From positions 9,447,705 through 9,511,704 of the forward strand of contig NC_055987.1 in NCBI RefSeq assembly GCF_018446385.1: a stretch of DNA of 64,000 bases, read 5' to 3'. The notes beneath the pieces are model-generated. The model did not search any database. It was not told the origin of the DNA and saw only the letters and a list, made by a program, of their open reading frames with translations. The position numbers and the translations under genes were made by a program. The first letter of the stretch is position 1. Every line of letters starts with the position of its first letter. Shown in pieces: positions 20,013-60,286 of the stretch. Source of the stretch: Zingiber officinale (Eukaryota; Streptophyta; Magnoliopsida; Zingiberales; Zingiberaceae).

Positions 20013-20235
20013 ATTATAGTACGTACTTATAGTTCAAAATATTAATGAAAATTTTATTTGCTTGCTTGACTCTCTTAATAAAGTATCATGATTTACTATT
20101 ACTGGTGAGCATTTGGTATTTGTAAATATTAATGGAAATTCTATTTGTTTGTTTACTCTCTATTTTTTTTTAAATTTTCTTTACTATTGTATATACATGT
20201 CAATTAAAATAGCGTCTTTACCCATTTGTTCTTGG

Positions 20236-20393: not shown

Positions 20394-20407
20394 TACTCTT
20401 ACATATA

Positions 20408-23260: not shown

Positions 23261-23269
23261 TGGACCTTT

Positions 23270-23400
23270 AACTTCTACAACATAGAGTCTGTGTTGTAGC
23301 AGTTACAAACTCATAGCTGCTGCAATGTGGTCATGATTTGATAAATCATGTTGTAGTAGCATGGACCAGTGGCTGCTACAACACAGTCTTAATTAATTAA
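23270..23400. repeat. Left block of a GTAGCAGCTAC palindrome array
   Basis: Words such as TGTTGTAGCAGTTAC, ATAGCTGCTGCAA, TGTTGTAGTAGCAT and GGCTGCTACAACAC alternate in orientation. They are diverged forms of the unit that is clearer at 25227-25535. Confidence 0.75.
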
Positions 23401-29129: not shown

Positions 29130-29231
29130 AAATAATGATAGTTGTATTACAGTTAAAGAATGACAAGTGATACGGTGAGGAAGGTGAGGAAGGTATGATA
29201 TTTGAAGTTGGGCTCGACATCAAGAAAGTCG

Positions 29232-30010: not shown

Positions 30011-30914
30011 ATCAACAATTCTCTACATTTTTATTTTCTTTATCCTATTTACATGTCAAATACATTATTACACATCATATTTATACATACATCCAAACAA
30101 ACAAAACACATCATCCAAAAAGCAACAAAAACTACACATCCCATATCAACATTCAAATATGTCAAATCAACACACATTATATTTCTCCATATTCCGATGA
30201 CTGACTTGAGCATCGGAAGGTCAATGTCGGGGACTTCTTTCCTGGCTCAGCACTGACGTCATTTATTTTACAGGGCGGAGCGAAATCCATATCCGATTAG
30301 TAAAGCCACCACATCTCAATTTTCTACTTGTCCATTTTCAGACAGGATCATAACTCTATAGTACTTTATACAACCTAATTATCACCAAATAAAATCTACT
30401 AGCCATACATCTGTGCAATTCTCCTGCTTAATTATTATTTAAACACTAATTTTGCTCCAATTATATTAACTTGACTATGCTGTTACTGATCTTAAAAAAA
30501 ACTGAAGTATGCTATTAAAAAAAATTCTATAAATCAATCACAAGATATAAGTATGCAGTAATAATTTACGACCGACAAAACATTGAATTGTCAGGATGAC
30601 TTCAGAATGACAACTTTAGATAACAAACTCCACACAAAAAAAAGTATTGCCAAAAAAAAACAGGGAAAAGAAAAGTCGACACAAAAATCCAACTTTGAAT
30701 CATTCTTCCAACTATAAATTATTAATGACTTGTGACAGAAGGATCATTTGACTAATTTCCACCATGACCAATGAGCATGCAGTCTCCTTTCAGACTCATT
30801 AACAGCGAAGTGACCCTCCTGCTCATCTTCCACGACTGGGCGAGTAGCCTCTCGCCGACTTTTCCTCCCCATTTTAAAGCCTTTCTAATTAATTGCTTTC
30901 AGATATATATACAA

Positions 30915-30946
<32 letters not shown>

Positions 30947-31461
30947 TTATACAGTTAGAGTAACTCTGTTTTCCTGAACTGCGCCAGAGAATGAATGAAT
31001 GTTCAGTGTTCAGTCTCTCCCTTTAACCACGCTTGTTGTCTCGGTAGACACAGTTTGTTATACGTTGGAAAGCTTCCCCGAAAGCATCTTCACACTTCTT
31101 TTCATGCCGTGTCCTAACAAGAGGTCTCGAAGAAACAAGCTTCAAACGGATTCCTTGACATCAGGTGAGAACGGCGGTGGGGACCCTGCAAAAAAAATCC
31201 AAAGATTGCACCAACACCGCCGTTCAAAGTCGCCAGTCAAAGCTTCCAAGTCAAGCCCCGTAGCGCAAGTTTATTCTTTTACAGGTCCAAGTCGTCGGAT
31301 CAGTCAACGCTCCCTGGCCCACCGACTCCACTGCGTATCCTCGATCCGCGACGCTGCTCCTCGTGCCTACAAACCGTCGTTCTTTGGAGTCCTCTCTCGT
31401 CTTCTATCGCTGAATAATCTCTCTTTTTGTAGGTCTTGTGATCGAAGCAGAGCTGGTGGAA
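30011..31461. other. Upstream region of the LRR kinase gene
   Basis: The first part is AT-rich, possibly the inner remains of the CACTA element. An ATT microsatellite lies at about 30916-30946. From about 31000 the sequence is pyrimidine-rich and less AT-rich, consistent with a 5' leader or promoter. The 158-codon frame at 30999-31475 overlaps the kinase start and has no domain, so I do not call it. Confidence 0.5.
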
Positions 31462-34772: not shown

Positions 34773-35590
34773 TTATGATTGTGAAACAGCAATATGAGAT
34801 GGAAGGTAGTGTTCATTTTGAAGGAAATAGGTACTGCGGCAGTTATACGTATAGTTGTGGTGTTTTTTTCAAGTCAGCAGACATTCATCTACATTGTTAA
34901 TATCCACTATTATGATATTATAGCAGTTGTTTTTTTTGAATTGTTTTTTGTTATCTGGAATCTTGATCCTTCCCTCAACAGTCAAATGAAGTCGAGAGGT
35001 TATCACATTTCTGTAGTCATAGTAGTTTGCATGCCATTGACGATCAATTTATCAGTCCCTAAACTTGATTCTATTTAGAATTTGGTTCTTCACTACTGTG
35101 TTTTCACCTAATGCCTGAGTAGTTCAATATTTGAGATCTCGAATTCCTTTGAGGTGCATCTTCAATTGGTCTTCCTATTTAGCAAATGATTTCCAGGTTA
35201 TAACTGCATGACGTCACAAGATTATGGACCTATTGAGCTCAAGCTCACAGCTCTCATTTTAGAAATGTGATCAATGTACAACCACGTTTTTAGGATGATG
35301 AGAAATATAAATATCATCCACAAAGCCAAATCGACAAAAAACAAAACAATGACGATGAACTTGAACCAGTACACTGAGTCATCGTGAGATTATTGCCAAG
35401 AACAAGAAAATTTTATTGTGTCCTGTCAAATGTTTGAATGCACCAACGCAAAAAAATCAAGAACAGGGATCACTGATATTTCAAAATCAGAGCAATTGAT
35501 GGCCTTTTTAAGACGTAAAAACAATGACAAACCAGCTACTAAATGGTTCTCTCTTTTCCGTGTATCATCCAGGAATTTCCTTGCGTAAAG
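34773..35590. other. Convergent 3' flanks of the LRR kinase and plastid E2 genes
   Basis: This should hold the 3' UTRs of both genes. It is AT-rich with no domain-bearing frame; the 94-codon frame at 34794-35078 is chance. Confidence 0.5.
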
Positions 35591-38500
35591 TTACATGGTG
35601 AGGTCTTTGGGGTTCTCTATAATCTGTGATAGAGTTTGCAAGAAAGCAGCGAGATCAGCACCATAAATGACACGGTGATCTGCTGTAACATTCACCTGCA
35701 AGTATTTCGTTGAAATTAGCCAAGCTATATAACTTGAAAAAGAACTGATATAATAATTGCTGTCATGAAGTAAGATTTACCTGCATCTGATTCTTTAATC
35801 CAATTCTGCCATCCTTGGAAGCAACAACAGTTGGTTGAGATGCACCAACGGCCATGATTGCTCCCTGTGGAATGTTCCAATAGAATTCGTTGGAATACAG
35901 AAACAAAAAATCCTTCCAAACAATGAATTAAGACAAGCATTTACAGTTCCAGGAGGCAGAATTGCATCAAAGCGGTCGACCCCAAACATTCCAAGATTTG
36001 AAAGAGTAAATGTACCTGTAGAAAGCAACAAATTCCACATGTTGATCCCAAGAGCCATTTTTCTTATGTCAAAAGAAAACTAATTATTGCCATAAAAAAC
36101 TTAAGCCGTTAGTCTTATTTTGACTTGCCTGTGATCTCATTCTTTTGTGTTTAATTATCTTTATCTAGGACAAAAGCAACCAGCTATTTTAACAATACAT
36201 AGCTGGAAGCAAATTTCAGATGTAGAAAATCATATTATAGTGAATACATAAAGATGTCACCCAAAAACTGATATAATTGAAAATAAAAAAAATATATATC
36301 CATATTGCCTTCAAAGGGAGTGATGGGATCACATTTCAAAATAATTTATGAAGAGAAAAAGCATAGATTAATATGGCCTTTAACTGAGATATACAGTAGT
36401 TTGTAAAAGTGATAAGTAATACAGGCTAGTGATAAGTAAAAGTGTAAAACACACAGTAGTTTGTGTCAATACACAAACACACACATTGGTTCACTGCATA
36501 GCCCGTGGACAAATATGAAATGCATATATGGTCATCATTAGGAACTAAACATTTATTCTATACTAAAAATATAAGTTCCACTGTACCATAAAAGCAATAG
36601 AAATTACCGATAACTAAAGAACACAGTAGTTCTTCTGCCAACACACATATTGGTTCCATGCGTAATGTGCCCTTTGATAAATATGAAATGCATATCTAAT
36701 CATTATTCGTCTTTGAAATCCCGATTATCATATTCACCCTCATTCTCTTCTTTCATTGGGTTATGATTCATTAGTTTGTGTCACTAGGTATGAGTAAACT
36801 TGGAGTTCATCCTTGGTAGAAACAGGACCAGATTGTACACACCTCCATTATATCAACTGTTTAAAGAAATACAATAAGCATAGGCTACAAGTGAATTTGT
36901 GTATCACCTGCAAATGATTGGAATTAAAGCAGTGTTCTACATGTTCCAAGTTGCATTTATCAGACAAAAGATCACACATAGTTACATTATAGATAAATAC
37001 AATCACTAATTTTGATGATTTGCACATCCTCATCACACGAACTACCAATCATACCAAATAGAATTCTGATCCAATCTGGCAATCTACAGTTGTAATGGAC
37101 TTTACTATGTGATTATATATGAAACAATAAGACCATATGCATCTTTTATTTTAAAAAGAATAACCTACACGGACACTTCTCTGCTCATTCGTTTCCAATG
37201 ATTTTAGAATTGTTGTAGCAGAGTTTCTTGCCCTTAGAGATCCTGAACACATGGAATATTGAAATTGTCCAAATAAAACTAATGGTTAAGCAATGTTTGT
37301 CTCAACTATCTGGAACCAGCCACATGGATCTTAGCTGTGCATAGAGTTAGTTTCTTGCCCTTAGAGATCCTTAACACATGGAGTATTGAAATTGTCCAGA
37401 TAATAACTAATGGTTAAGCAATGTTTGTCTCAACTATCTGGAACCAGCAACATGGATCTTAGCCATGCATTAAACTCTATGCAAGTCTATATCAATAGAA
37501 ATATTGAAATCAACTAAATAATCTCGTTACATTAACTAAAATTTTATTTGACTATTTTCTACCCTTATACGTTCTGCTCTAATTAATTCAAATTGTTTGA
37601 GAAAGGAATCTATTCATACTTTTAAATCATGTTGATACCATCTTAACATATTTTCTCGACCATGTAGATACCATCTTAACCTATTTTCTCTCATCTTAGA
37701 GTTTTATCTATTAGAGCTAGAGTGCTAGACCTAATTGCTCTCATATGTGTTTTTAATTTTATCCTTTCTAGTAACGTCACATATCCATTTTGGCAGTCTC
37801 ATCTTTCTTATCATAACTTTTTTAATGTGTTGCTTCCTAATAGCCCAACATTCCCATCCATAAAGCATGGTGGATCATATCACAATCTTATAGAATTTTC
37901 ATTCAAGGTTAAGCGACACTTAACAGTCATACAAGATTACAAAAGCTTCTCTCTGTTTCAACCATCTACACTTTATCTCAATGATATCTTCATTAATATT
38001 CCTTTCTACTAAATAATAGGTCTAATATATCTAAACTATTACTTGCAGAAATTCATGTTCATCCATCTAACAACTCCCTTTCTATTACTAAAACTACAAT
38101 TCAGTTTTAGCTCTTAGTTTCTACGCGCCTTTTTTCCCAAAAATTGAAGTTTCAGAGTTAAACTATTTATATTATCAACAAAAAGCACTATATATTCTGA
38201 AAAGAACGTCCGCCATCTTCAATATTATTGTTGAGTTCATCTAATCCATGCCATAATGACAATCATATATTAACTGAATAAGTCGAGAACCTCCAATTCT
38301 GAATGTCACCTAGGTTTTAAAACTGAGTTCTCTCATGATTCTTTGGTATTGAATTTCCTGATTATAAAATCCTGGGTTTAAGTTTACCAAATATTAAAAT
38401 TTGAAAAAGCAGATAATTGTGGTACTATAGTGTCTTATCTCATAATCATAATATACAACTCAAGTTGCTAAGAAGCATAACATAACTAGCAACTTCAACG

Positions 38501-40744: not shown

Positions 40745-41204
40745 GGATGATGGATGCCCAAGAGAATGCGAGCTCGAGATCGGAGGAGACGAGAGGGGAA
40801 GGGCGATGAAATGAAGTGACCCGGCTGTGATTGTATCGAAAGGAGGGCGGAGCCTCCGAGGAGGGCAAATTGGCCGAAGTTGATTGACATCAAGATTCGA
40901 CATATTCTCGTGACGGCTTGATGAACGGTCAAGATCTTTCCTAGTGAGTGACGCAATAATGACAAATTTTCTTTTTTTTTATGGGAATCTTTCATTTCAC
41001 CTCAGAATCTCTCATTTTTTTCTAAACTACTGCCAGAGTTTCAAAAATCGTCAGAACACCCCTGATGTATTGAAATTGTTATTATTTCTCATTCTAATTT
41101 GTTTCTCTGCATTCGCATAACAAAATAATGATACAGTTGAGTATTCAGTCTTCACTCACTTTTCCATCAAGGTTAAGTAATGTTGTTCATTGTTTTGGTA
41201 GGAT
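40745..41204. other. Promoter side of the plastid E2 gene
   Basis: The minus-strand upstream region of the E2 gene, up to the edge of the large Gypsy element. No TATA box could be fixed. An insertion this close (about 460 bp from the start codon) could affect expression. Confidence 0.45.
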
Positions 41205-41464
41205 AATTAATCAAGTCAAAGTAGAGAAGATGGATAGTTGAGAATATGATTTTATCATTGACTTGATGAAAACTCCTTGTTATCTTGCATGTTACAAAGA
41301 ACGTTAGTTGTTGGTCCAGGGAAGGGATTCCTGGTATTAGCCTTCGACATTCAACTAAATGCTTGGTTGAAGGAGAAGAATAGTGAAAATAACTGTAGCG
41401 ATGATCGTGTTAAATTGTGTAGCGTCGCATATCTGTACTTATAGATAGAGACCCCTTTTTATAG

Positions 41465-41857
41465 GGAGCAAATCTCCTAGTCCAAGAAAAGTAGACCAGG
41501 GGATGAACCATTGGTAATTGCGGTTGAATCATGGCCGCGATCCGACCGTAATTGGTTGTGATCCCTCTCTGTGTTCATTGTCCCCATCAGGTTATAGCTT
41601 GGGTCAGAGCGGACAGCCGGAGGCCGTTCGGAGGGCGGGCCCCGCTCAGCGTCTGACAACCTAGACACTTGCCCACTTTCGGCGACCTTCGAGTAGCATT
41701 CGGTCGTTAGCTCTAACCTAAACTATAACCTAGTGGAGACGGTGAACCCAGGGAAGAATCGTAACCAATTGCACTCGGATCCCGACCATGATCCAGCCGT
41801 AATTGTGAGTGGTTCATCCCCTGGTCCATTTTTTTTAGACCAGGAGATCTAATCTCC
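41465..41857. mobile_element. Mutator-type MITE in the Gypsy 3' LTR, 9-bp target duplication, empty site known
   Basis: A 393-bp element starts GGAGCAAATCTCC and ends GATCTAATCTCC, with terminal inverted repeats of roughly 100 bp. The 9-mer TTTTTATAG flanks it (41456-41464 and 41858-41866). The sister LTR has the uninterrupted site (about 59648-59668), which proves insertion. The centre (about 41570-41700) is GC-rich and not part of the inverted repeats, so it may be captured sequence. No transposase. Confidence 0.92.
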
Positions 41858-42899
41858 TTTTTATAGTGTCACTATTGTGTCTGTGCACGAATCTCAAAGT
41901 ATTTTCAAAAAGGATAGACCATAAAAGTGACTTTGACATCTACCTAAAATAAGCCCGTAAATCTCTGTGATTTAATAGGTTGGAAACTTCGAAAGTGCGA
42001 TTTGCCTGCAGAATATCTTCTATCCTTCGTAGCATAAAATGTCAAAAAGGAATATGAGGCCTTTAGACCATGTGACCCACCATAGGGCCCCTTGGCACAG
42101 TGATCGAGGCCCTATATTAAGCACCCAAGATGTTCAGCCGGATCATAAGTCCGATCGGCTGGAGCAATTGATGGAGCTACTTGTTTCCTATCTTCAAGCC
42201 TTGTGTATGTGACGGAAGTTGGAACATAAAGCCTGATCAACCTAAAGGTTTAGTTGAGTGAGTTCTCGATCTGCTTCAAGCTCCAATTGTAAGGAGATCG
42301 AAGGTTGGGACTTAAGGTCCGACTAGCCATAGGGTCCTGTCGGATGAGATCGTCAGGTCAAGTGAGCTCTAGGTTCTATTGATTACTCAGAAGACTGATT
42401 GATTTTTTACTTTGACTGCCTCACCCACCAGCCTCCTGGACTTTGACCTACGTTCTGGGAGGAGGGTCCACCTTAACTACAGTATCACAAGTCTTTCCTT
42501 CGAGTCTAGTCGAAGAAGACTATAAGTCCAACTGACTGGACCTTTAGTTTTGTTTGTTGAACAAGCATTCTCTTTCTTCATTGTCGTTCGGCTTGAACGA
42601 ATATTGTACTCAACAATCGCTATTTCTTAAATCCTTTGTTCCCCGACCAAGGAATACACTATATGACGCCGCTCAGCTCGAATGTAGGATGTACTTAGTT
42701 GTTGCCGCTTTCTGCCTCCTCTTTCTCCAGTGGGACTCCAATCCTCAACAGTGTCACTTGGTTATGATTGACGTCATGCTAATTTCTTCAAAACTGCGGG
42801 AAACACCTATCATAAATGCGAAGTATGCCAAGCCTGCCTTTTCATCATGAGCATGCTGATTACTCCCATCCCTCATAAATGCGCCCTATGATTTATCAC

Positions 42900-44800
42900 T
42901 ATGTGTCGCACACACTCATAATAGAATATTCAATGTGACATGCGACTATTGGGATTTGATGTGACAACTACCTTTTCAAATTGATGACCCAAATTAAATT
43001 TCACTTTTCTATGTTCTTGATCGGATGGCTTCAAATAACCCTCACTAGGGTTTTTAAAGTCTTTCTTTTCCGATGCACTGTATCGCTTCCAATGTCATAT
43101 TCATCTTCATCTTCTTCCTCTTCGTTTTCTACTTGTTGCCAGCGATTAGCGTCCAATAAGTTTTACTTCTCTGCTTTTCTTTCGATCTTTGCCATTCTTC
43201 CTCAATGGCTTCTTTGTCTGCTCCTTCCTTTATCCCCGAACTTTAGTACACTTCTAGTTTATCCTTCTTCAATGGTGACGAGATAGACCAAATGCGGCTA
43301 ACTTACTGTACTCCTCGTGATCACCAAATTGTTATTCCTTCTGCTTATGATCTTACCCACACCCCTCTGGTCGGTTTCATTACTTTTTCTCTTAAGTCTA
43401 TGTCGACCTTCGCCAAGCCCCTGATTCAGCAACAATATCACAAAAGGCACTGTTCAACCACACCTATCTGATCGGTGACTTTCGGTCCACCACATCCATC
43501 GCGGCATCCACTGTGTGACCATAATCTGAGTGGGGAGAAAGATCTGCTTCCGTAGTTCCAAAATTAGCAGCCGATATGCCCACTCCCCTTTCCTTCGAGC
43601 GTACTCTCTCACTCTCCAAGATACCATCCGGTACTATCGTGGCCCAATCGATATCTTTCTTGATGCCACCCCGACCAAGACAATCCAACCCTTTCTATGA
43701 TCTGTTCAACTCCTCTTTCCAAATCCAAAAGTAATTCTAAGCCCACCTCCACCGAACCTTGCGAGTCGAGCAAGCAGAAGAAAGTTCGAGAAATCCTTAG
43801 ACTGCCCACTCATGATTTATTATCCATACACTGTTGATTCTTTAGCTCCTGAACACAAAATAATGATACAAGGACCCTTAGCTTAGATTTGGACTGTTGC
43901 AAGGACCTAAGCAAATGCTAGTTCCCCCGAGGAGCTAGTTGACCACTTTAGTCAAGGAACCACTAGGATAAGTTTCTTAAAACCTTTACTCTTCTTATTT
44001 ATTTCTTTTAACGTCTTTTTCACTTTCACAGTTTTAGGTGGACGACCTGGCACTTGGCTAAAAATTGGCTAAGATGAGCCATGAGTGCAAGAAGTTTCAA
44101 GACTTGGCTGGCATAGTGGGCACTTCCCATGATCTATCTGACCTACTCTCCTAAGAGGTGACCCAATTAAAGAAGGAGCCAGAGATCCAGTCTGAGCAAT
44201 TTTTGGGGTCTGAGCGGGTGCTTACTATGGAGAAGGATAAGAACCATGGCTAAGTCATCTAACTCGAAAAGCTAATGAAGCAGACCCAAAATTATGAGTC
44301 ATACATCAACTCGGCCAACACTAGAAAACTTAGGGACATCAAGGACTAAGATATTAAAAATAAGAAAGTCCATGCTTTGGCCAAGAAGCTTGAAGAAACA
44401 TAAGTTGTTCTGCTCACCAAGCAAGTTAGCCGAACGGTCGAACAAGTGACACGAGCTTCAACTTGGGGAGCACCAACAAGCCCTCACTGAGAGAGATGCC
44501 GAGCTAAAAGATGTGAGAACCGAGCTGGAGGCCTCTAAGGCAGAGTTTACTAAATACAAAGAAGAATACCCTGATCGTCTGTAAGCATTTAGGGTGGAGT
44601 ATTTGCACTCACGGAGCTTTAATTAGATGTTAACCGATCAGACCAATAAAATATTTAGCTATGGCTCTTAGGGAACAACCAAGCAATTGAAGGATGGCGG
44701 TTATCTAACTACGGAGATCCCTAAAAATTTTATCAAGCATTAAAAGATCCTGGAAATCATTCCTAAGGACACCTTCACTGGCCTTGCTTAATTCTTCTTT
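42900..44800 (+). other. Region with plus-strand coding character inside the Gypsy fossil
   Basis: Inside the minus-strand Gypsy element, between pol and the 3' LTR, the plus strand carries protein-like pieces with coiled-coil composition (for example around 44150-44570, rich in Glu, Lys, Gln and Leu). Antisense genes at this position are known in some Tat-lineage elements such as Grande. It is broken. The assignment rests on position and composition only. Confidence 0.45.
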
Positions 44801-44964
44801 TGAAGTGTAATGATCTTGTAAAAATTTCTAATAGTTTATCTTCTTGTAAAAACTAAATATTCTACCTTGTTTGTATATATATCCTTTTTTAAGCCTTCAA
44901 CATTTTTCTGCCTTAGCATTTTGTAATGTTGTTTGCTTTCCGTGACTTGCCCAAATTTACGCTA

Positions 44965-45340
44965 TAATCTATGACTTAGGCATGAGAGCAAACTCACTTA
45001 TAACTCGACTGATCGAGGCGAGAGTTTGAGACTTGGTTGTGAGAGCAAGCTCACTTATAACTCGGCCAAACGACACGAGAGTCTAGGACTTGGTCAGAGA
45101 GCGAGCTCACTTATAACTCAGTCGAGCGGCTCGAGAGTCTAGGACTTAGGCGTGAGAGTAAGCTCACTTATAACTCGACTGAATGGCACGAGAGTTTGAG
45201 CTCAGCTGAATGATACGAGAGTATGAGACTTGGTTGTGAAAACAAGCTCACTCATAACTCATACCATCGGCTCGAGAGTCTAGGATTTAGGCATAAGAGC
45301 AAGCTCACTTATAATTCGGCTGAACAACGCGAGTATCTGG
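44965..45340. repeat. ~60-bp tandem repeat array in the Gypsy fossil
   Basis: About six units share GAG(C/A)AAGCTCACTTATAACTCG and CGAGAGTCTAGGACTTGG. Arrays between pol and the 3' LTR are common in Tat-like elements. The array is cut at 45341 by a Copia insertion. Confidence 0.85.
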
Positions 45341-45767
45341 TGTTAGAGCAATCTGTGTGACCCTAGATTTTGATATTTGGGCAAAGCTTTAAACTAGGAT
45401 TATTGTTATATTTGACATGGGCTTGTGAGTGTGTAGGATGTAGGTACAACAAGGAAAGTCCAACTTGTTAAACCCTGTGGTAGTTTTGATGTGATCAACC
45501 AAGTTTAGGTTAGGTCATGCTTTGTGTTTGATCCCTGTGTCTAAGTGTGCAGGAGCTTAGGAGCGCAGGAAGTCGAGCGGAAGACGTAGCTAGCGAGAAG
45601 GACGGCACGGGAAGGGAGCCGACGAGCTCGGTGTGTCCGAAGGACGAGAGAGCTGCGGAAGAGTACACCCGGTGGGCGTGAAGAACATGCGCGGTGTTCG
45701 AGGGACGTAAAGCCGGGACGGAAGACTGTCGAGGAGAAGGCCGGGAACTGGGTTCGGGTGAGCCCTA

Positions 45768-48340
45768 TGTTAGGGTGTATACTAAAAGCCTAGCTTTTGG
45801 TATAAACATTTATCTAGTAATAAGAATCACATTGGTCAAATGTCTACATTTATGATAAATGTAGTTGTTCAATTAATTTATATTGTAGATAACATGGTGT
45901 GTGGTGTCACACACAGAGGATCATGTTATCAGTACCTTATAAATTATAAACAGTAGCTCACGACCAAAATGGAAAGGAACAAACCATTAGAAGGTTGTAG
46001 TGTAATTAGGTATCAGTTTATCTTGACTGTATAATTACACTAGTACACTTAGAGTGTATTGAGTAGGACCATTTGAGGTCGTTTCCTTTATACTGATTTT
46101 ATAAAGAAACAAAGACCTCGGTTATTATGGAAGTGTGTGCTCTTAATCCTAATATAATAACAAGCACATATATTTGATATTTATTTCTTTAATTTATCAA
46201 TGGGTGAGATTTAGTTCGATGAATCAATAAGCCCGATAAGTTGGGAAATGGTATCACTTATAGTGTGTGTTGTTGATTATAGAAGGAAACGTGTCCTAGA
46301 GATACTAGGTTGATAATGTCCTCAAGAGGAGCTCATAAGAATTGTCATGTTAAACCTTGCAGTGGACCTAGTCCGACATGATGATAAGGTTGAGTGGTAC
46401 TACTCTTGGACTAAGATATTAATTAAATGAGTCAAGAACTCACTTAATTAGTGGACATTCGATATCTTAAACACAGGAGACTAACACACTCATGATAAGA
46501 AGGAGCCCAAAATATAATTTGGGATTGGTACGGTAGTTCAATAATAGTTCTCTAGTGGAATGAATTATTATTGATAAAATTAAGTTGTGTGTTCGAGGCG
46601 AACATGGGATGCTTAATTTTATCGTGAGACCAAAACCAATTCCTCCTCTCGGTCCCTATCGTAGCCTCTTGTATATAGAGATTTATACCCACCACATACC
46701 CACCTTCTTACCCAACCAATAGGGGCCGGCCAAGCTAAGCTTGAAGCTCAAGCTTAGGGCCGGCAAGCCTAAAGGTTGAGCCTTAAGGTGGTCGGCCAAT
46801 AGCTTGGAGCCCAAGCTTAGGTGGCCGGCCACATCATATTAAAAAGGGATTTTTATTAAAATTATTTCTTATGTGGATATCATAGTTTTAAAAGAGAGTT
46901 TGAAAATTAAATCTTTCCTTTTAAAGCTTTCTACAAAAGATTAAGAAAAGATTTGAAATCTTTCCTTATTTGTAGATTGAAAGGAGATTTTATTTTAAGA
47001 AAACTTTCCTTTTTAACCATGATAATAATTTAAAAGAGAAGTTTAAAAATTAAATATTCTCTTTTATTAGTTTCTACAAAAGATTAAGAAAAGATTTGAT
47101 ATCTTTCCTTATTTGTAGATTGAAAAGAGATTTTAATTTTTAAGAAATAACTTTCCTTTTGGTTTTTATCCACATGTTTAAAAGAAAGATTTTAATTTAT
47201 TAAATTTCCTTTTTATAAACCAATCATGAAGGGATTAAATTATTGAAGAAATTTTATAAATTTCTGGAGACAAATTAGGAAGTTTTAATTAATTAAAACT
47301 CTCCTTGTTTGTAGCTTTGGGGTGGCCGGCCATGTAAATTGAGAAAAGGAAAATTGTTTTAATTAAATAAAATTTTCCTTTTCATGGCAAAAGAATTAAG
47401 GAAGTTTTTAATTAAATTTCCTTATTTGCCAAGACCAAGGATTATAAAAGAGGGGGTAGAGGTGCCTTCATGGGTGATCAACTCTATTATTCTTCTCCTC
47501 TCTTTTCCTCCTTGGTGGCCGGCCCTAGCTTCTTCCTCTTCTCTTCTTCTTATGGCCGGCGGCAACCTCTCTTGGAGCTCTTGATGGTGGCCGGTTCTAG
47601 CTAGGAGAAGAAGGAGAGAAAGGTGGTTTTGTTTCTTGCATCCCTTGGAGCTTGGTGGTGGTGGCCGGACCTCTACTTCTCTTGGAGAAGTGGTGGCCGA
47701 AACTTGTAAGGAAGAAGAAGGTGCTTGGTGGTTCTCATCTCGGAAGATCGTTGCCCACACAACGTCCGAGGTTAGAAGAGGAATACGGTAGAAGATCAAG
47801 AGGTCTTTTAGAAGGTATAACTAGTAATTTTTCCTTTCCGCATCATGCTAGTTATTTATGGATATAATACTAAATACAAGAGGCATACGATTCTAGAGTT
47901 TCGAATTCGTTTTCGATATAGTGTTCTTTTGTTTTTCTTTTTCTTGTGATTTGATTGTTCTTTTCGGTTAACCTAAAGTTATTTTAGGAAATTAAATATT
48001 AGCTTTCTATAAAAGGTTTTGTCTAGTCGGTGGTGGTTGCTCCCATATCCAAGAAGGCCATGTGCCTCGCCACGTCAGTACTGGGAATCGATTATGGAAA
48101 TTAATATTTAATGGAATTAATAATTTAATGTGACTTGGGTCGAACGTGTTAAGTTCTGCAGGAGACCCAAGTCAAAACCTAAAAGAATGAATAGATTAAG
48201 TTTTGGATCAAACGTGTTAAGTTCCGCAGGCGATCCAAAATTTAATTTAAAAGAACACATGGTAGCTAGGAAAAGGTTCAGACCTTTGTACAAAATTTTT
48301 GTACAGTGGAACCTCTAGGTTTTCCGAGTAGCAACCAACA
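45768..48340 (+). mobile_element. Solo LTR (~2.57 kb) inserted in the 5' LTR of element B
   Basis: It begins TGTTAGGGTGTATACT and ends GCAACCAACA. The duplication CCCTA flanks it exactly (45763-45767 and 48341-48345). The 3' LTR of element B still has the empty site, GAGCCCTATTCCGG near 51502-51515, which confirms the insertion to the base. It belongs to the same long-LTR family as the minus-strand solo LTR at 26684-29129. Small frames inside are not genes. Confidence 0.95.
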
Positions 48341-51300
48341 CCCTATTCCGGATGGCCGAAATCACCCAAAGAAGCCGAACCAGAGCAAGTCAATTGGAAG
48401 TTGACTTGTCAATGGTTCGGTCGACTGAAGCTCCTGATCGGTTGATCGAACCCCTCTCAATCAGCAGCCAACCGCCAATGCCACATCAGAAGCTGACCAT
48501 TGGTAAAGCTGATCGGTCGACCGAACCGAAGTTAATCCAGAGACTTAGTCGAGCAAGTTTATCGAGCCAACTCAGCTGGAGACCGTTGGCCGATCGGTCG
48601 ACCGAACATAAGGATTGGTCGACCGAACCTAAGCTCGATCCTCAGAGACTGCACCAGGACGGAATACTGGGCAGGTACAGCAGGTTCGGTCGACCGAACC
48701 TGGGGATCGGTCGACCGATCCCTCTCGAGTCAAACCTGATCATGAAGGTTCAGGTTTTTTTGATAATCTCTAGAACCCCTATATAAAGGGGGTCTTGGGC
48801 AACTATTGAGATACAACGAATACGAACGAAAAAGCAACTCTTGTACTCTCATTCTCTTAGCAACTACTGTGCTATAAAAGTGTAAAAGGCTTCTCCGCCT
48901 TCAAAAAAGGAGACTCTTTTAGTGCGCCCTTCTACCGCCTTGGATTAACAACCGTCTCGGTTGTAACCAAGTCAAATAGTTGAGTTTCATTTCTTTTCTG
49001 TTATTTTGTTTTGTTATTAAGTGTTGCTTTATTTTAGAGTTGAAAAGCTTTGAGGAGAGTAACTTTTAGTTTCAGGCAATTCACCCCCCTCTTGCTGGTC
49101 CCCGCTGCACCTACAAGTGGTATCAGAGCCCAAAAGCCTCAGAAGGACTAACCGCCGTCTGAAACACAAAGATCATAACAATGGCCGGCGCGAACATTCA
49201 TCCCCTGAAGTTCGACGGAGATTTCGCTATATGGAAGCGGAAAATGGAGGTATTCTTTAAAACGGATTTTGACATTCTTATTACAATGAAATATGGTTTT
49301 ACAGTGCCGAAAGATAAAGAAGAAAACACGTGGAGCAAGAAGGAGCAAGCCGATTTTGTCGCCAATGGAAAGGCAGAATTCCACCTGCTTAGCGTGCTGC
49401 CACCACAAGAGGTAAGTCGAATCGGAAGCTACGACTCCGCGAAAGACCTCTAGGAAAAATTCCTGGAGCTTCACGAAGGTACCTTGGAAGTTAAGCTAGC
49501 AAGGCGCGACATCCTCCGGAACCAGTTAACGAACCTCCGGATGAACAACGGCGAGAAGGTAGCACAACTCCAAGCAAGGATCAAAGAGCTGATCACGCAA
49601 ATAACCAATCTTGGAGAAGAAGTAACGAACCGAGACTCGATCCGGTACGCGCTCAACGTCTTCCCCAGAACTCCAGAATAGGCGTACCTAGTAGATGCAT
49701 ATTACATCTCTAAGGACTTCGAGGTAATTACTTTAAAAAATTTATTTTCTACTTTTGAACTTCACGAATCTCGAGTTGCAGAGCCCAATGAAGTAGAAAA
49801 GATTAGTCAGAACATCGCTTTGAAGGCAAGAACAAACGGTTCTGACTCCGAAGCCTCGATCGACGAATCGGAAGCGACACTATTGGTAAGACGCTTCAAT
49901 AAATTTTTTAATTCTAATAAATTTAGATCGCAGTCGAAAAAGTTTCAGCAAAAGAAAAGGGTGGTTCGTTGCTACAATTGCAACGAAGAAGAACATATAA
50001 AAGATGACTGACCAAAGCTGAAGAGCAAAAGTAAAGAAAAGAGTAAGAAGCCAGCTCGACCCAAACTCAACCTAAAGGCCACGTGGGATGATTCATCGTC
50101 CTCCGAATCCGAAGTCGAAGAATTCTCGGGACTAGCACTGATGGCCAACCATCAGCTAGAAGAAACGTCTAGCTCAGAAAATGAGCATAGATAAAGGGGG
50201 AGGAACAACAGAAGAAGAAGAAAGCTGTGATGAAGGGGGAGCATCGCAAGACGAGGTAAGTAAGGTACGTGCCCTAAATCCTAAACAGTCCTTTCGTTTT
50301 ATTAAATCTCTTTCTAAATAATTAGATAAAGTAGAAAAAGAAAATGAATATTTGAAATCAGAAAATGAAGTTTTAAAATTAGAAATTAAAAAATTGAAAA
50401 CTGATGCATGTGTTAAAAATATTTTCCCACATTCAAAAATAAAGTTATATGGAAAATTAAATTGGTATATAAGGAAGCATCAGGGTCAACTTAGGAAAAT
50501 ACCAAGAAACTATGTACCCCCTATGTTTTTGACCAACCTTATAGGTAGGAACCTTTATTGGGTTCCAAAATCTTTACTAGTTTAAATTTCTCTTTTAGTT
50601 AAAAGCTTACAGTAAGAAAAATAAACATTGAGGTTCTTTATGGAAGGTTTGTCTAAGGAAGTGGTTGTTGCTCCAATAACCAAGAAAGCCTAGTGCCTCG
50701 CCACGATATGGAAGCCGAAATATCAAAATAAAAATGTTTAATTAACTTTATGATAAAAGCATTAAAATAAGAATTAAATAATGCTTTGAAAAGTTTTTAA
50801 ACATTTCCTTAGAAATTCTTTAAATTTTTTAATTCTCTAGAAAAATGTTTCTTGAAATTTTTACTTAGAAATTTTTGGAAAATTCTGAAAATTCATAACT
50901 CAATTTACTTAGAAAATTTTTCAAAACTTAGAAATTTTTTAAAATTATACCTAACTCAAATTTTTTTTTCAAAGTTCAAATTTGTTTGCACCCCGTTTTT
51001 GTTGTGATCAAAGGGGGAGAATAAAGATAAGTTCAGTTAGGGGGACTTAGTTAAAATTTTTATTTGTATAAATTTTCATGTTGCAATTTATTTTAAAGTT
51101 GCAAATTTATGCCTGAATTGTTAGTTTAGTAATTTCTTTAAAATTACTATCTGTTTGTTTTACCCTAACCTGAATTTGGGTTGATACACATCAAAAAGGG
51201 GGAGATTGTTAAACCCCGTGGTAGTTTTGATGCGATCAACCAAGTTTAGGTTAGGTTCTGCTTTGTGTTTGATCCCTGTGTCTAAGTGTGCAGGAGCTTA

Positions 51301-51514
51301 GGAGCGCAGAAAGTCGAGCGGAAGACGCAGCTAGCGAGAAGGACGGCACGGGAAGGGAGCCGACGGGCTCGGTGCGTCCGAAGGACGAGAGAGCTGCGAA
51401 GAGTACACCCGGTGGGCATGAAGAACATGTGCGGTGTTCGAGGGACGTAAAGCCGGGATGGAAGACTGCTCGAGGAGAATGCCGGGAACTGGGTTCGAGT
51501 GAGCCCTATTCCGG

Positions 51515-51905
51515 ATGGCCGAAATCACCCAAAGAAGCCGAACCAGAGCAAGTCAACTGGAAGTTGACTTGTCAATGGTTCGGTCAACCGAACCTCCTGA
51601 TCGGTCGACCGAACCCCTCTCAATCAGCAGCCAACCGCCAATGCCACGTCAGAAGCTGACCGTTGGTAAAGCTGATCGGTCGACCGAACCTCCTGATCGA
51701 TCGACCGAACCGAAGTTAATCAGAGACTTAGTAGAGCAAGTTGATCGAGCCAACTCAGCTGGAGACCGTTGGCCGATCGGTCGACCAAACATAAGGATTG
51801 GTCGACCGAACCTAAGCTCAATCCTCATAGACTGCACCTGGATGGAATACTGGGCAGGTACAGCAGGTTCGGTCGACCGAACCTGGGGATCGGTCGACCG
51901 ATCCC
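51515..51905. repeat. GGTCGACCGA palindrome array in the LTRs of element B
   Basis: Variants of TCGGTCGACCGAACC recur about ten times here and in the other LTR (about 48415-48722), spaced by unrelated sequence. The core GGTCGACC is a perfect palindrome. Open frames with repeated DRSTEP peptides arise from it and are not genes. Confidence 0.85.
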
Positions 51906-52646
51906 TCTCGAGTCAAACCTGATCCCGAAGGTTCAGGTTATCTGATAAGCTCTAGAACCCCTATATAAAGGGGGTCTCAGGCAGCTATTGAGATACAACG
52001 AATACGAACGAAAAAGTAACTCTTGTACTCTCATTCTCTTAGCAACTACTGTGCTGTAAAAGTGTAAAAGTCTTCTCCACCTTCAAAGTAGGAGACTCTT
52101 TTAGTGCGTCTTTCCACCGCTTTGGATTAACAATCGTCTCGGTTGTAACCAAGTCAAATAGCTAAGTTTCATTTCTTTTCTGTTATTTTGTTTTGTTATT
52201 AAGTGTTGCTTTATTTTAGAGTTGAAAATCTTTGAGGAGGGTAACTTTTAGTTTCAGGCAATTCACCTCCTCTCTTGCCGGTCCCCGCTGCACCCACACA
52301 AATGTAATCTTGACAAAGGCATAGTCCAAGTGGAGTCTTAGCGGTGTAAGTCCAAGATATAGTCTTGTCAACGTAAGTCCAAGTGTGACTTGGCAAGGAT
52401 GAAGTCCTAGAGCGAGGAGCTCTTGGCAAGGTTGAAGTCCCGGAGGTGAGGAACCTCATGGAAATGGAAGATCTGACAACAAGGATAAGGTCGAAGGAAG
52501 CCCTTGAAGGCAAAGCGTGAAGATGGGGAAACATCTAAGAAACGCAAGGCTGATGGAGGAGGCTAGAAGGTAAGGTCAAGTTGTGTGAGCGAGGACGAGT
52601 GCATGAGTGATTATACTCGGGGTAAACTCCTATGTTAAGGATTTAC

Positions 52647-53021
52647 CAGTCGACTGGTATATATCTCAGTCGACTGGCGATTGAGAACCAGCAACTTAGA
52701 AGGATGCAAAATTTATGGTTGTAGAGTTACCAGTTGATTACTAAAGCTACTAGTCGACTGGTGCAGTTAACTGATAAAGTTAACAGTCAACTGGAAACAA
52801 ACAGAATGCTTCTATTCACTTAGTCCATGAAGACTAGTCGACTGATATATATCTCAGTCGATTGGTGGTTGAGAACCAGCAACTTAGAAGGATGTAGAAT
52901 TTGTGGTTGCAGAGTTACCAGTCGACTGCTAAAGTTACTAGTCGACTGGTGCAGCTGACTGATAAAGTTAACAGTCGACTGGTAACAAACAGAATACTTC
53001 TATTCTCTTAGCCCATGAAGA
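52647..53021. repeat. ~187-bp tandem duplication with CAGTCGACTG palindromes in the LTR of element A
   Basis: Two units start near 52647 and 52834. Both carry (C/T)AGTCGACTGGT-like words several times each, and GTTGAGAACCAGCAAC. CAGTCGACTG is a perfect palindrome. More single words follow to about 53110. Confidence 0.85.
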
Positions 53022-55411
53022 CCAATCGACTGGTATTAAGTCGTTGGAGTGTAACAGTCAATTTTTTTTCACAGAGACCAGTCGACTGGTGGTGGAAAAA
53101 TACCAGTCGAAAAATAGTTTGGTGTTTTCCTTCCAAGCTCTATTTAATAAAGCTCAGGGTGCCTAGCTGAGGTGACGACAATAGAGGTGGTTAACCCCTA
53201 TTAGAGTCTCCAAAGCTCTCCTTGTGATCCAAGTACTTGTGGTCAAGAATTGTGGTAAGGTTTCTCTACCGACAAGGAGGTTGTTCTAGCCAAAGTTTGA
53301 CGGGGGTTGATCCACCTATAGATTGAGATTTCATCCACCTTACAGACACACTGTAGAGGAGCAAATTATCTCCAAATCACTTAAATGAACGCATCATTTG
53401 GTTTGTTGTATCTTTGTCTTTATTGTTTATAGGTTAGCTTTCATCTTATTAGTTTATTTTTGTATTCTACTATGTAGTAACAAGTGTAGAAAGTGATCGA
53501 AATAGGTGATCGGTTATTCAATCCCCTCTAGTTGAGCATAAAGGTTTCAACAAGTGGTATCAGAGCAAAGAGCGCTCTTAAAAAGACTAATCGCTGGAAG
53601 GAGCACGTGTTAGAGGAAGAAGATGACGAAATGGAGTCAGAAGGTCTGCTAGGATGGCACATCCGGATCCGACCTTCATACAATCGAGAAGACTTCGATT
53701 ATTGAAGGAAGTAGTTGGAGACATGGTTCCAAATGGATTAGAACCATTGGACTGCATTGGAGGTTCCTTTTGAAGCTCCAACAAACAAAAAGGGGAAGTG
53801 TCTCCAACCTCGGTATTGGACCAAGGGACAAAGGGAGTAATCGGAAATGGACAAGGAGGTAACTAGAATTGTATTGAATTTATTACCTTCTAATATTATG
53901 TTATGTATAGATAAATATAAGTGTGCTCATGAGTTATGGAGCAAAGTAATAGCATTTCATGAGAACCCTACATAAGCACAAGGAGTGAAGGAGCCCAATG
54001 AGAAGGGGTCGTTGGTCCAAGAGAAGGAGAAGGATCAATTGAATGTTGATACGTGTTCAACATCCAATGAGGAGGAAGAAGTGGAATCGACCACATCTTT
54101 GGAGGAGGAAGAAGTGGAACCGTCCACATCTTCGAAGGAAGAAGAAGAAGAGCAATCCAAGATAGAAGAGATCTTGCAAGCTCAACCCTCAACCTCAACT
54201 ACTGAGAAAAGCGGGAAATCACACATCAAGTACTTTGAATGTAGTGAGATGAGACACTACAAAGGTAGGTGTCAATTGCTCAAGAATGTAAAGGAGGTAA
54301 ACTCTAAACCCAGTAAAGTTCTTTTGAAGACTAACGTGAGTTATAGGGATGGTGCCAAGGAAAAGAGGCACATTCGATACTTTACTTGTGGTGAGTGGGG
54401 GAACTACTACACAAAGTGCCCAAGGAAGGGAGAGCTCATGAAGATGGAGCGATTGAAGCAATGGAGGAGAATGAAGTCATGTGGATGCTCATGTCAAGGG
54501 AGAGCTTCAATGGTAGGCAGGAAGGTATACCCTAACTTGAACCATAATTTGGATATTAATTTAAGTTATAGGGATATGCATACTAGAAATAATGTCAATT
54601 ATTTACCCATGCATAATTATGGATTTAAATATAATGATAGGAATAGGGTTAACATTGTTTATAACCCTAAAAAATCATATGCTAATAGTTGACCTAATAA
54701 GAAACAATCCACTTTGTCTAAGGAGAGGAAAGTGGTGAAAAACCTAGGCATCAATCCCAAGAAGGAGAGACACATGCATAGGAAGGGCAGGTCTAGGAGT
54801 GTTCACTTTGTTGTTCATTGCCGTCCTTCCGCACCAATGATGATCCGATAGCTCGTTTAGTGAAGGACAAGTATATCTACAATGGCTCGTCGATGATGGA
54901 CTTCGCGAGTACAGGTAAATAAGATAAATAACTTTTAAGCTCTTCTAATGTCTTGTCGACTCAGTGTCTCATTGAAATTTGGTGGCTCAGCGAAGTATCT
55001 TGAAGAATGGCAGGCTCTGATCGAACGACTTTGAGTTGAATAGGGAGAGGGTCGTGATGCGCCTTGTCAGACGTCGTGCCTCTTTCAGGTTGTGTGGCAG
55101 AGACATATCTTGGAGTGCCTTAACCTTGTTGGGTTTAGCTTTGATTCCTCACTCAATCATGATGTATCCGAGGAAGTACCACTTTTAGCCCCAAACAAGT
55201 ATTTTGTTGGGTTTAAGCTTGCCTCCATACCTACTTAGGGTATGACACGTCTCCTCGATGTCTACACATAAATCAACAACTCGGAAGGATTTTATTAATA
55301 TATCATCAACGTATATCTTCATGTTTCTGCCGATATGCTTTCGGAACACCTTGTTCATGAGCCGCTGGTATATTGCTCTAGCGTTCTTTAGTCCGAACGA
55401 TATGACGTTAT

Positions 55412-56551
55412 TGTTGGTGCGGTTAGCACTAACGGTCTAACTCAGGTTTTGATGAATGACAAATCAGGTTAAGTTAGGTTTGTCGTAATCTAACACTCTG
55501 ATCGAGTGTGCAGGCTAAGTCCAGACAGGTCGACGTGCTGACCGGATGTCTGGCACGAAGTCTAAGCGGGTCGACGGGCTGACCGGACGCATGGCGAGAA
55601 GTCCAGCTAGGTCGACGGGCTGACCGGATAGCTAGCGAGAAGTCCAAGCGGGTCGACGGGCTGACCGGACGCTTGGCGAGAAGTCCAGCTAGGTCGACGG
55701 GCTGACCGGATAGCTGGCGAGAAGTCCAGACGGATCGAAGGGCTGACCGGACGTCTGGCAGATAAGTAAAGGTAAGTCACTGGAAGGGAGTGACTGTGAG
55801 GACGCGTTCCCGGGAAGGGAACATTAGGTGTCAATCCGGCTTAGATCCATTTCGGATATTTAAGTCGAGATCGTGACTAGATTTCGATCTCGGAAAGACG
55901 AAATCTAAGTCATACTCTTTACGTTGAACTAATAAACTATGCTAACACTTTGTTTTGCAGGAAATTCATTATATATGTCTTGGACTAACCTTGTCTTGCA
56001 GAAGAAGGATTTTCTCTGGAGAAAGGTGGTCCGGGCGCCCAGAGGGGATCCGAGCGCTCGGAGGTCCGGGCACCCGGAGGTAAATATTATCCAAGACTCG
56101 GCGTTGACACGTGGAGGTCACTGATTGGGCCTGCCATGTCTCACCAGGGCGCCTGAAAGGGATCCGGGGTGCCCCGAGCATCATATAAAAGAAGGGACAA
56201 GGCTGAAGCTCAATACACAACTTAGAATCTGCTTTCCTACGCTCCTGCAATGCTGTGAAGTTCCAACAACACTATTCTTTTAATTTCTTCTTCTGTCGGT
56301 ATAGCTTTACAGTGTTTTTCATTAGCATTCTTGTATTAGTTTGTAATAATTATCGAATTGCTAGTGAATTGTCCATCGACAACACCCTCGTGTGCGGGTT
56401 TTGGAGTAGGAGTCGACACAGGCTCCGAACCAAGTAAAATTGGTTTGTGTTAGCATTGCTTGATTTTTCCGCTGCGTTTAACTCTGATCGAAAAGATTTT
56501 TCGTAATCGATATTCACCCCCCCTCCTCTATCGAAACATCACGATCCAACA
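55412..56551 (+). mobile_element. Solo LTR (1,140 bp) in the Gypsy reverse-transcriptase region
   Basis: It begins TGTTGGTGCGG and ends GATCCAACA, with a perfect duplication GTTAT (55407-55411 and 56552-56556). It is the plus-strand relative of the solo LTR at 24114-25226. It contains about six ~41-bp units with the core GGTCGACGGGCTGACCGGA (about 55525-55760). No internal region remains. Confidence 0.95.
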
Positions 56552-59500
56552 GTTATAGTAGTAGGTTCCCTCCATGGTGATGAAGCTGACTTTCTCTTGA
56601 TCTTTCTGGGTAAGCGAGATTTAGTAGTATCCTTGGTATGCGTCTAGTATGCATATTAATTCACAACCAATAGTAGAGTCCACCACTTGATCTATGCTTA
56701 GTAGATTATAGTAATCTTTTGGGCATACCTTATTCAGATCTCTTAAATTCACGCAGACTCGCCACTTATTTCTTGGCTTGGACACTAATACTACATTTGT
56801 AAGCCAGCTCGAGAATTGCACTTCCCAGATATGTCCATCTTAAAGTAGCTTATCCACTTCTGCTCAGATGATTTGATTTTGCTCTACTCCAAAGTCTCTT
56901 TTCTCTTACATGACCGACAGAGCGTCCGATCAGATGTGTAATTCATGTTGCATTATGGTTGGTGGGATACCCGGGAGCTCATGGGTCATCCAAGCGAATA
57001 CATCATGATTGTGTTTCAGGCAGACAATTAACTCTACCTTCTTCTCAGGGCTCATATCAGTGGCAATAAAGGTAGTGGCCTTTGATTGACTGAGATGAAT
57101 TTGTACTTTTTCTTTTTTTCATAGATTAAAGTTTGAGGAGCTTCTTGGATTTCATTAACCTCAAGCCGCTAGGCTTTTCGAGTGGCTTGAGACTCAATTT
57201 TCACATTCCACATAGCATTTGCGCGCCACGAGCTGATCTCCCCTAACTTCGTCGACCAAGTCGTCTACTAGAAATTTGATTTTTTGGCAAAATGTAGAGA
57301 TGACAACCAGGAACTTGTTCAATGTTGGTCGATCAAGTATCATATTGTAAGCTGATGGGGTGTCCACCACAATAAAATTCGTCTGGCGAGTCCTCATGAA
57401 TGGCTCTTCTTCAAGGGCGATAGCCAGCTTAACTTGCTTTATCGACTGTACTTCATTCCCGGTAAACCCATACAGGGGTTTGTCATCGGTTGGAGCTCAT
57501 TCTTGTCCATCTAAAGTTGATCGAATGCCTTTTTGAAAATGATGCTAACCAAGCTGTTTGTGTCAATAAAAGTTTGATGAATAGTATAGTTAGCGATCAT
57601 AACTTTAATAATGATAGCATCATTGTGGGGTATCTCTACCCCTTCCAAATCTTTAGGACCGAAATTAATCTCGAGTTCTTGTACTTTCTCCTTACTGCAC
57701 CCAACCACATGGATCTCCAGTCATCATGCATGTGATTTTCTAGCCCTGTTAGAATCACTATCGGTCGGGTCATCCGCTATCATACCAATGTCATCTCAGG
57801 CTGCATTGTCATGATTTTCTTCCTCCCGAGTCGATGGGCGTGGTGACCACTCGATAGATGCTCGTATAAGTCTTTGGTTGTTCCATTGTTAGGATGGATG
57901 TTGGGTCTGATCGGTTGGCACGTTGTTTCGACCTGCAGGTCCATCTGGTCAGCGATAAAGTTGGCAATTGGGAGAAGGAGATCCCTAGTGGAATTCTAGA
58001 TGCTCCGGTCAGTGCAGGCCTGGGTTAAAGTGGTAACAATCTTTTATGTCGTGAGTCCCTGAGCGATGATAGGTGCAAAATATTGGAGTCCACGGTTGAA
58101 ACTCAAGGACTCGTGGTCGATCGACTTTCACATACTAGACCGCGTACGACCTTGACTCGTGTTGCTGCGGTGGAGGGCCCGATCGGGGTGCTTTTAAGGC
58201 AAATTATTGTTGGCCAATCGGTGCTTAGGAGCGGCTCCATGCTCAGGAGAGGCTTCCACATGTTGGATTGCGTACGACGACTCATGTTGCTGTGGTGGAA
58301 GGCCCGATCGGGGTCACTTTGGAGGCAAATTATTGTTGGCCGATCGGCGCTTAGGAGCGACACCATGCTCAGGAACTATCTCTTTTTTCTGAGCGGACTG
58401 AGCTTCTTTAATATTGATGTATTTGGTGGCTTGTCCAAGAAGATGATTGAAATCTCTCGGAGGCTTCCTAATGAGGGATCGGGAAAAGTCATTATCTATA
58501 AATCCCTGGTAGAAGGCACTCACCAAAATCTCTAGAGTGGCCGAGGGGACATCCATGGCAATTTGATTAAATCGCTTAATGTAGGCCCTCAACATCTCAT
58601 TGGGCGCCTGCTTGAGTAAGAATAGATTCACCGTCGTCTTGTGATAAGGACAACTACTGGCAAAGTGATGAAAGAAGGAAGTTTGGAAGTCCTTGAAACT
58701 ACAGATAGACTAGGCAGATAGTCGTTTGAACCATCTTTGTGTTGAATTCGCCAAAATAGTGAGAAACATTCGACACTTGACTCCGTTTGGGTACTGGAGT
58801 ATGACCACATTTTCAAATTTTAGTAAATGGTCCTCAAATCAATCATCCTTGCGTACTCCCCGATCGGCAAGGATTGATAATGTTTCGGGAGTTTATCCTC
58901 CAATATCTCTTTGGAGAATGACGTGCTATCTCGCTTGGGGGAATCACTCATCACGGGAGCCTTTCTCTTACGAATATCCTGAGCAGGGGCATTCTTGGAA
59001 TACGATCTCTGTGTCTTCTCTGCTCGGCCCATGTCCTCTAGGAGCGTTCAAAATAACGCTCTGTGATAGGCAATCAGTGAATGCGGCATCGGTGGCAGGT
59101 GGGTCGGTGGAACGAGTATTTGAGGGAAGGCGCCCAACATAGTGTGGTTTGGCTAGTGTCCAGTCGAACCCTCCACTCGAGTCTCACGTTCAACGTGTTG
59201 GCCAGTTGCAGATATAGCAAGGTTGTTCATCATATGGCACTCGGCTGCTTGTTGTTGTTGTTCCACCATCCTTGCAGCCTGGGCATTTGCCAACATCTTC
59301 AGTTCTTCTTGCGTCAAGGTCACTGTAGTAAATCATCCAGCGTCTTCCATCTTCACGTTTTAGATGCAAGTGAAATTCCCACAGACGACGTCAAATATGA
59401 TTTTGTCTAAAAGCGGAGAAGGTGGATGGTTGGGAACGTGGCTCTTTCGTTGACTTGATAAAGACTCCTCGCTGTCCTATGTGTCACAAAGAGCATTAGT

Positions 59501-60286
59501 TGTCGGGCCAGGGAAGAGGTCCTTGATATTGACCCTTCGATGCTCAAGTCAGTACTCGGTTGAAGTAGAAGAATAGTGAAAACAACTATAGCGATGAGCG
59601 TGTTAAATTATATAGTGTAGCATACCTGCGCTTGTAGATGAAGACCCTTTTTTATAGTGTCACTGTTGTGCCCGTGAACAAATCTCAAAGCACTTCTGAA
59701 AAATGGCAGGTCATAAAGTGACTCTGACATCCTTTCTAAAATAAGCTTGTAAATATATGTGATTTGAGAAGTTTCGAAAGTATGATTTGCCTACAAAATA
59801 TCTTGTTTCTTCCGTGGCACAAAATGCTAAAAATGAATACAAGACTTTTAGACCATGGGACCCACCATAGGTCCCCTTGGCATAGTGCTCGAGACCCTTT
59901 ATTAAGCGCCCAAGGTGTCCGGTTGACCTATAGGTCCAATTGGCTGGAGCAATTGATGGAGCTACTTGATACATTTCTTCAGACCTCGTGCATATAACGG
60001 AAGTCGAAACATAAAGCCCGATCAATCGAGAGGTCCAGTCAAGTGAGTTCTCGATCTACCTCAAGCTCCACCTATAAGGCGATCGAAGGTCGGGACTTGA
60101 GGTCCAACCGGCCATAAGGTCCGATGGGATGAGATCTCCGGTCAGATGAGCACTAGGTTATGTTGATTACTCAAAAGATACTGATTTTTTTACTTTGATT
60201 GTTTTGTCCACCGACCTTCTAGACTTTCATTTAGTTCCGAGGTTGGGGGTGGGATCCATGCACCTTAACCACCATATTAGTAATGA

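Follow-up and report, generated by a model that had tools for sequence, protein, structure and literature searches.

A nest of retroelements in ginger, ordered in time and compared between two homologous chromosomes

What separates two divergent open frames at this locus of ginger (Zingiber officinale), and in what order did it arrive there? The window analyzed here is a stretch of 64,000 nucleotides, C2:9447705-9511704, in a 3.09-Gb genome of 211 contigs. Between the two frames it carries a decayed Gypsy element, within which lies Copia A; the 5' long terminal repeat (LTR) of Copia A holds an element denoted B, and the 5' LTR of B holds a solo LTR denoted D. A second solo LTR and a miniature inverted-repeat transposable element (MITE) lie elsewhere in the Gypsy. 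Chromosome C1 acts as the homologue of C2, matching it at 98% over the left flank and 91% over the right, and the interval between the flanks measures ~19 kb on C2 vs ~39 kb on C1. We read the nest as a passive pile of retroelement insertions, with a probability of roughly 0.93, based on the joints, the target duplications, the empty sites, the LTR distances and the presence or absence of the layers on C1. The features are:

41203-41207, no strand: left copy of the Gypsy target duplication, ATAAT (GCAAT on C1)
41208-60279, minus strand: decayed Gypsy, outermost layer, pol shortened by deletion (LTR pair, gag and reverse transcriptase in Pfam, decayed duplication on both haplotypes)
41208-42487, minus strand: Gypsy 3' LTR, split by the MITE (LTR comparison)
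41465-41857, no strand: MITE, on both haplotypes (9-base duplications at 41456-41464 and 41858-41866)
44968-45340, no strand: Gypsy tandem array, recipient of Copia A (sequence repeats)
45341-53552, plus strand: Copia A 5' LTR, split by B (sequence; left duplication TCTGG at 45336-45340)
45466-52298, plus strand: B, a gag-only LTR element in the 5' LTR of A (duplications, empty site on C1, copia-type gag piece)
45466-49115, plus strand: B 5' LTR, split by D (LTR comparison)
45768-48340, plus strand: solo LTR D, innermost, 2573 bases (CCCTA duplications at 45763-45767 and 48341-48345)
51207-52298, plus strand: B 3' LTR, with an empty D site (LTR comparison)
53553-54807, plus strand: Copia A internal remnant (longest open piece 238 amino acids)
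54807-54808, no strand: deletion scar, the 3' part of A and adjoining Gypsy DNA lost on the C2 haplotype (C1 alignment resumes at 54808)
55412-56551, plus strand: second solo LTR, of a different family, absent from C1 (GTTAT duplications at 55407-55411 and 56552-56556)
59398-60279, minus strand: Gypsy 5' LTR (LTR comparison)
60280-60284, no strand: right copy of the Gypsy target duplication, GTAAT (GTCAT on C1)

A preliminary description of this DNA, made from its letters alone, had named the joints between the layers. Direct inspection of the sequence found all of them, almost to the base, together with the target duplications that it had listed: CAACT (45461-45465) and CAAAT (52299-52303) around B, CCCTA around D, GTTAT flanking the second solo LTR and, at each end of the MITE, the 9-base TTTTTATAG. 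The last two are separate insertions into the Gypsy. The outer element is present as described, with its ends shifted to 41208 and 60279 from 41205 and 60286. Both empty sites that had been placed in sister LTRs were recovered: that of D lies in the 3' LTR of B (51504-51508), and that of the MITE at about 59649 in the opposite Gypsy LTR. C1 is likewise uninterrupted where B (CAATT) and the second solo LTR (GTTGT) sit on C2. Because the 3' LTR of B lacks D, the window D entered after B and was not carried in with it.

Alignment of the haplotypes demonstrated that the Gypsy, the MITE and Copia A are present at identical sites on C1 and C2. In the quartet of Gypsy LTRs, 57 of the 752 complete columns pair left with left and right with right, the other groupings having 8 and 13. 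The proposed order of Gypsy, A, B and D held by nesting, by LTR divergence, by the branch of D and by presence or absence on C1. The LTR-pair comparison that had been suggested as a check, using Kimura two-parameter (K80) distances, gave 0.053 for the B pair (0.039-0.069; transversions 0.012), younger than the Gypsy pair at 0.288 (95% 0.245-0.336); the four left-right Gypsy comparisons over both chromosomes gave 0.267-0.288. Alleles of the Gypsy LTRs differ by 0.166 on the left and 0.183 on the right (mean 0.174; transversions 0.039), those of the Gypsy interior by 0.151 over 4,773 sites, Gypsy alleles per block by 0.131-0.190 (five blocks), the A LTR by 0.173 and the MITE by 0.272 over 302 sites. 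Relative to the haplotype split, the age of the Gypsy lies between about 1.4 times (LTR transversions) and 1.9 times (K80 set against the interior), that of B is about 0.3 times, by K80 and transversions alike, and that of D about 0.14 times, on a doubled terminal branch of 0.012. For the second solo LTR, the data give an insertion after the split but no rank against B or D.

The course of events was most probably as follows. The Gypsy inserted before the two ginger haplotypes separated, with the MITE and Copia A entering it later, still before the split, after which separate insertions accumulated on each chromosome. On C2, the gag-only B entered the 5' LTR of A; a D-family element then entered the 5' LTR of B and shrank to a solo LTR. 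Another element, now a solo LTR, struck the Gypsy, and a deletion took the 3' part of A with adjoining Gypsy DNA. The solo LTRs presumably formed through LTR-LTR recombination. C1 holds its own insertions (C1 positions are relative to 8834800): a D-family element at 2876-12533, inside further C1-only DNA, that retains its two LTRs (pair K80 0.019); an LTR-like insert of roughly 1.75 kb at 14960-16707; ~15.8 kb from 18578 to 34380, within which lies a D-family LTR; and, at ~34804-35720, a solo LTR of B type with the duplication CATAC, at a site that is uninterrupted on C2.

Several observations weigh against this reading. The age of D hangs on a single terminal branch, and the tree of 15 LTRs that gives it has just 4/12 inner branches well supported; the B and D joints are without counterpart on C1; rates vary by region, and ratios across families are therefore approximate. 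Copia A on C1 is a solo LTR, and the B-free site could derive from A's other LTR; if so, it is the LTR divergence of B alone that dates B to after the split.

Distances inside the nest had to be compared with those around it. Between C1 and C2, 14 selected collinear segments outside the nest gave K80 0.015 to 0.116 (five at 0.049-0.072; 0.116 at 14804-16044). The two segments adjoining the nest gave 0.022 and 0.041, and two short segments beyond those 14 gave 0.176 (1244-1504, 254 sites) and 0.123 (29757-30008, 250 sites). Divergence of the nest alleles is high, and not alone among local segments. At a rate of 1.3e-8, the figure in PMC8342452, the split would fall at ~6.7 million years by the Gypsy LTR alleles vs 0.8-1.6 million years by the two adjoining segments. 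Because distances for one and the same haplotype split vary several-fold between the nest and its immediate surroundings, the local clock proposed in the preliminary description holds as a relative order and has no scale in years.

The strongest alternative explains this divergence by an older ancestry of the nest alleles under suppressed recombination, so that, measured against the flanking genes, B and D would be older than ratios calibrated on transposable elements suggest; we consider it unlikely, but deserving of weight. The left step sits on the LTR edge (K80 0.047 in 41005-41204 to 0.209 in 41205-41404), whereas on the right a divergence of 0.137 persists to about 60599, some 300 bases beyond the element. 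Transversions are raised too, at 0.022 in the Gypsy interior vs 0.008 and 0.015 for the pair of segments next to the nest, and the chromosomes differ by ~20 kb of insertions at the nest; however, the flank is partly coding and hence constrained, and transitions are commonest at CG and CHG, as loss of methylated cytosine predicts (in five Gypsy allele blocks, CG 27-36%, CHG 20-29% and CHH 17-22%, H being A, C or T). Faster change of methylated DNA inside the nest, via methylated cytosine loss, is the likelier explanation.

It is far less probable that B inserted before the split and disappeared from C1 as A was recombining to a solo LTR. In favor of such a loss, A is a solo LTR on C1 and B lies only ~125 bases into A's LTR, where a crossover near the 5' end would remove it, but the distance of the B pair is ~1/3 of that between the Gypsy LTR alleles, in K80 as in transversions. 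Least credible is a nest that is partly an assembly chimera of contigs misjoined via repeats: the B and D joints are found on one chromosome only and both families are large (15,021 first-look candidates for B, 10,302 for D), but duplications border each insertion, an uninterrupted target survives either on C1 or in the sister LTR, both chromosomes carry the MITE joints and the left Gypsy/A joint, and neither the window nor 40 kb of C1 contains any N.

Each layer was also classified. The outer element is a Ty3/Gypsy on the minus strand, with minus-strand pieces matching Gypsy-type gag (PF03732, 58317-58709, 1.4e-9) and reverse transcriptase (PF00078, 55188-55409, 8e-9) in Pfam. Three antisense Gypsy pieces gave no Pfam match at E up to 1, the region being decayed. 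The stretch missing from C2 at the scar, where the Gypsy resumes on C1 at 54808, holds integrase-like open pieces readable by eye; two of these had no retroelement match in Pfam. The MITE measures 393 bases, too short for a transposase, with inverted arms of 193 bases that are 72% complementary. Mutator superfamily elements duplicate 9 bases of target, and the 9-base duplication, the long inverted ends and the lack of transposase identify the MITE as Mutator-type.

Copia A retains a 238-amino-acid piece with two zinc-knuckle-like motifs, seen by eye, and no trusted Pfam match. Its 3' LTR is absent on C2, where the scar fuses A to the Gypsy, and its complete target duplication (TCTGG/TCTGA) is found only on C1, around the solo LTR at ~16942-18168. 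A 188-base tandem duplication (89%) at 52645-53020 in A's LTR appears single on C1.

Element B is a Ty1/Copia by its copia-type gag, matched by one piece to PF14223 (2.9e-6; 27.3 bits vs a cut-off of 27); its zinc knuckle scored 20.0 bits, under the cut-off of 20.8. Scoring 40 of the 15,021 candidates for its 2090-base internal region, we found 31/39 matches collinear from end to end with the window copy excluded (32/40 with it). LTRs stood on both sides in 11/11 fetched copies, at pair K80 0.035-0.069, a range biased low by the choice of the copies closest to B; the 5-base duplications were exact in 7/11, matched at 4/5 in one and could not be resolved in the remaining three. Because the family copies share the internal structure, we rejected an origin of B by private deletion from a full Copia. 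The gag-only family is probably non-autonomous, moved by enzymes of other elements.

The D family has LTRs of 2.57 kb and an internal region of ~4.5 kb without a long open frame. Among the 40 of 10,302 D LTR candidates that were scored, the 11 other best matches are 95-98% identical to the window copy; the nearest relative in the tree lies at K80 0.020, and a pair on C9, 7.1 kb apart, at 0.0095. In 4,457 bases of one copy the longest open piece is 85 amino acids, against a shuffle median of 95. Over the initial 1.49 kb of the interior, where the longest open piece in three copies is 75-76 amino acids, 116 and 111 of one copy's 118 stop triplets are common to two others and 94 to the C1 copy. 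Since amplified copies have stop codons in common, the family probably is non-autonomous and was mobilized in trans by enzymes of other elements. Pol-like pieces are readable by eye, three of which gave no Pfam match at 0.01. At C2:189668185-189668781, two D-type LTR starts lie head to head with no spacer.

The position of D within B raised a further question, of target choice. Eight loci have D-family ends no more than 5 bases from a single site of the B LTR:

One orientation: the window (45763-45768), C10:79.22M, C14:34.74M, C18:20.23M, C11:101.13M and C9:59.86M
Opposite orientation: C16:3.54M and C6:125.74M

The loci besides the window are labeled L002, L003, L005, L074, L078, L079 and L080; those on C10 and C9 were placed by motif, their B alignments ending short. 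L006 and L008 were rejected as carriers of the joint, the DNA upstream of them not being B. The D family may, though with less than even probability, integrate preferentially at a near-exact point of B-type LTRs, a hotspot following B-LTR position 300, 302 or 304, just 3' of TTCGNGTGAG; the support for it is moderate and post hoc. The discovery query spanned the B/D joint and so favored similar joints; the exact joint, with up to 3 mismatches, occurs at 3 places. TTCGNGTGAG followed by 0-30 bases and the D start gave 13 matches, and 10 with D reversed, against 1 and 2 for two control 9-mers from the B LTR with D forward only; in 23 B LTRs each control is present in 18/23 and the motif in 17/23. 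In B-like contexts, judged by eye, the forward counts are 6 for the motif vs 1 and at most 1 for the controls. Offsets 3-7 take 11/23 matches (binomial 0.0004 vs uniform), 8/20 (0.009) without the three discovery loci and 7/19 (0.024) with C9 and C10, perhaps alleles, counted once, the site and the interval being picked after the data were seen. The motif is not limited to B: at C16:106.01M and C10:102.27M, neither of them B, D ends at the same base of similar sequence in opposite orientations. Of 20 fetched D flanks, 4 were internal purine-tract ends (that of L055 mutated) and two, L070 and L071, look related. None of the 16 outer flanks (0/16) lay in B LTRs, which weighs against a strong general preference, and insertion mostly into B LTRs as a general rule was rejected.

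The frames flanking the nest probably begin near 40744 on the minus strand and near 60881 on the plus strand, with start codons ~460 and ~600 bases away from it. The left one carries Biotin_lipoyl and E3_binding domains in Pfam, as in dihydrolipoamide acyltransferase; the right one has no Pfam match. Inside the nest, the C1-only 15.8 kb contains a glycosyl hydrolase family 1 fragment (PF00232, 1.4e-18) at C1:8856744-8857046 (L023:1944-2246), perhaps a captured gene piece.

Compared with known systems, the nest is a clean example of an ordinary kind of layering in large plant genomes: B, D, the second solo LTR and the MITE each have a target duplication and a recoverable uninterrupted target. 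Terminal-repeat retrotransposons with gag (TR-GAG) are gag-only LTR elements, and B is one of them, with two LTRs around ~2.1 kb, pieces of a copia-type gag and of a zinc knuckle, no room for pol, and a family of many copies; unlike them, the window copy has a broken gag. Large retrotransposon derivatives (LARD) are non-autonomous LTR elements, and the D family, recently amplified without coding capacity, is of this type in its long LTRs and its internal region, but its short pol-like pieces, seen by eye, make it look like a dead Copia copied in trans and less like an element that is non-coding throughout. The Gypsy, a possible member of the Retand lineage, resembles it as described in Vicient 2025 (PMC11963269) in its long region from pol to the 3' LTR with a tandem array and in its short open pieces antisense to gag-pol, whereas no TRP28-type domain was detected in the pieces tested. 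The account in Du et al. 2006 (PMC1560396) likewise includes retroelements within retroelements, ordered by LTR divergence and orthologous stretches; at this locus, two haplotypes of a single plant are compared, and four ranks are dated on one yardstick. Non-random nesting into particular element regions is common to this locus and the survey of 12 plant genomes by Jedlicka et al. 2019 (PMC6911290), in whose nesting results LTRs were the regions hit least often and similar nested pairs in every case differed by 50 bases or more, unlike the two successive layers in LTRs and the D-family ends recurring within 5 bases in B-type LTRs found here. The D-in-B site was not seen in those results or in a non-exhaustive literature search, and no wider absence is claimed. 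If the hotspot is real, D-family target choice would be governed by local sequence or by the position of nucleosomes with a precision of a few bases, which goes further than the published survey; confirmation of the site would open target choice by plant LTR elements to direct testing. With ranks dated by distance and verified against the homologous chromosome, and with the haplotype split as common yardstick, the nest is a compact calibration case, in which LTR ages from one fixed rate can be several-fold off in methylated DNA. To the known kind it adds a check across two haplotypes, a caveat on the clock and a lead on a hotspot.

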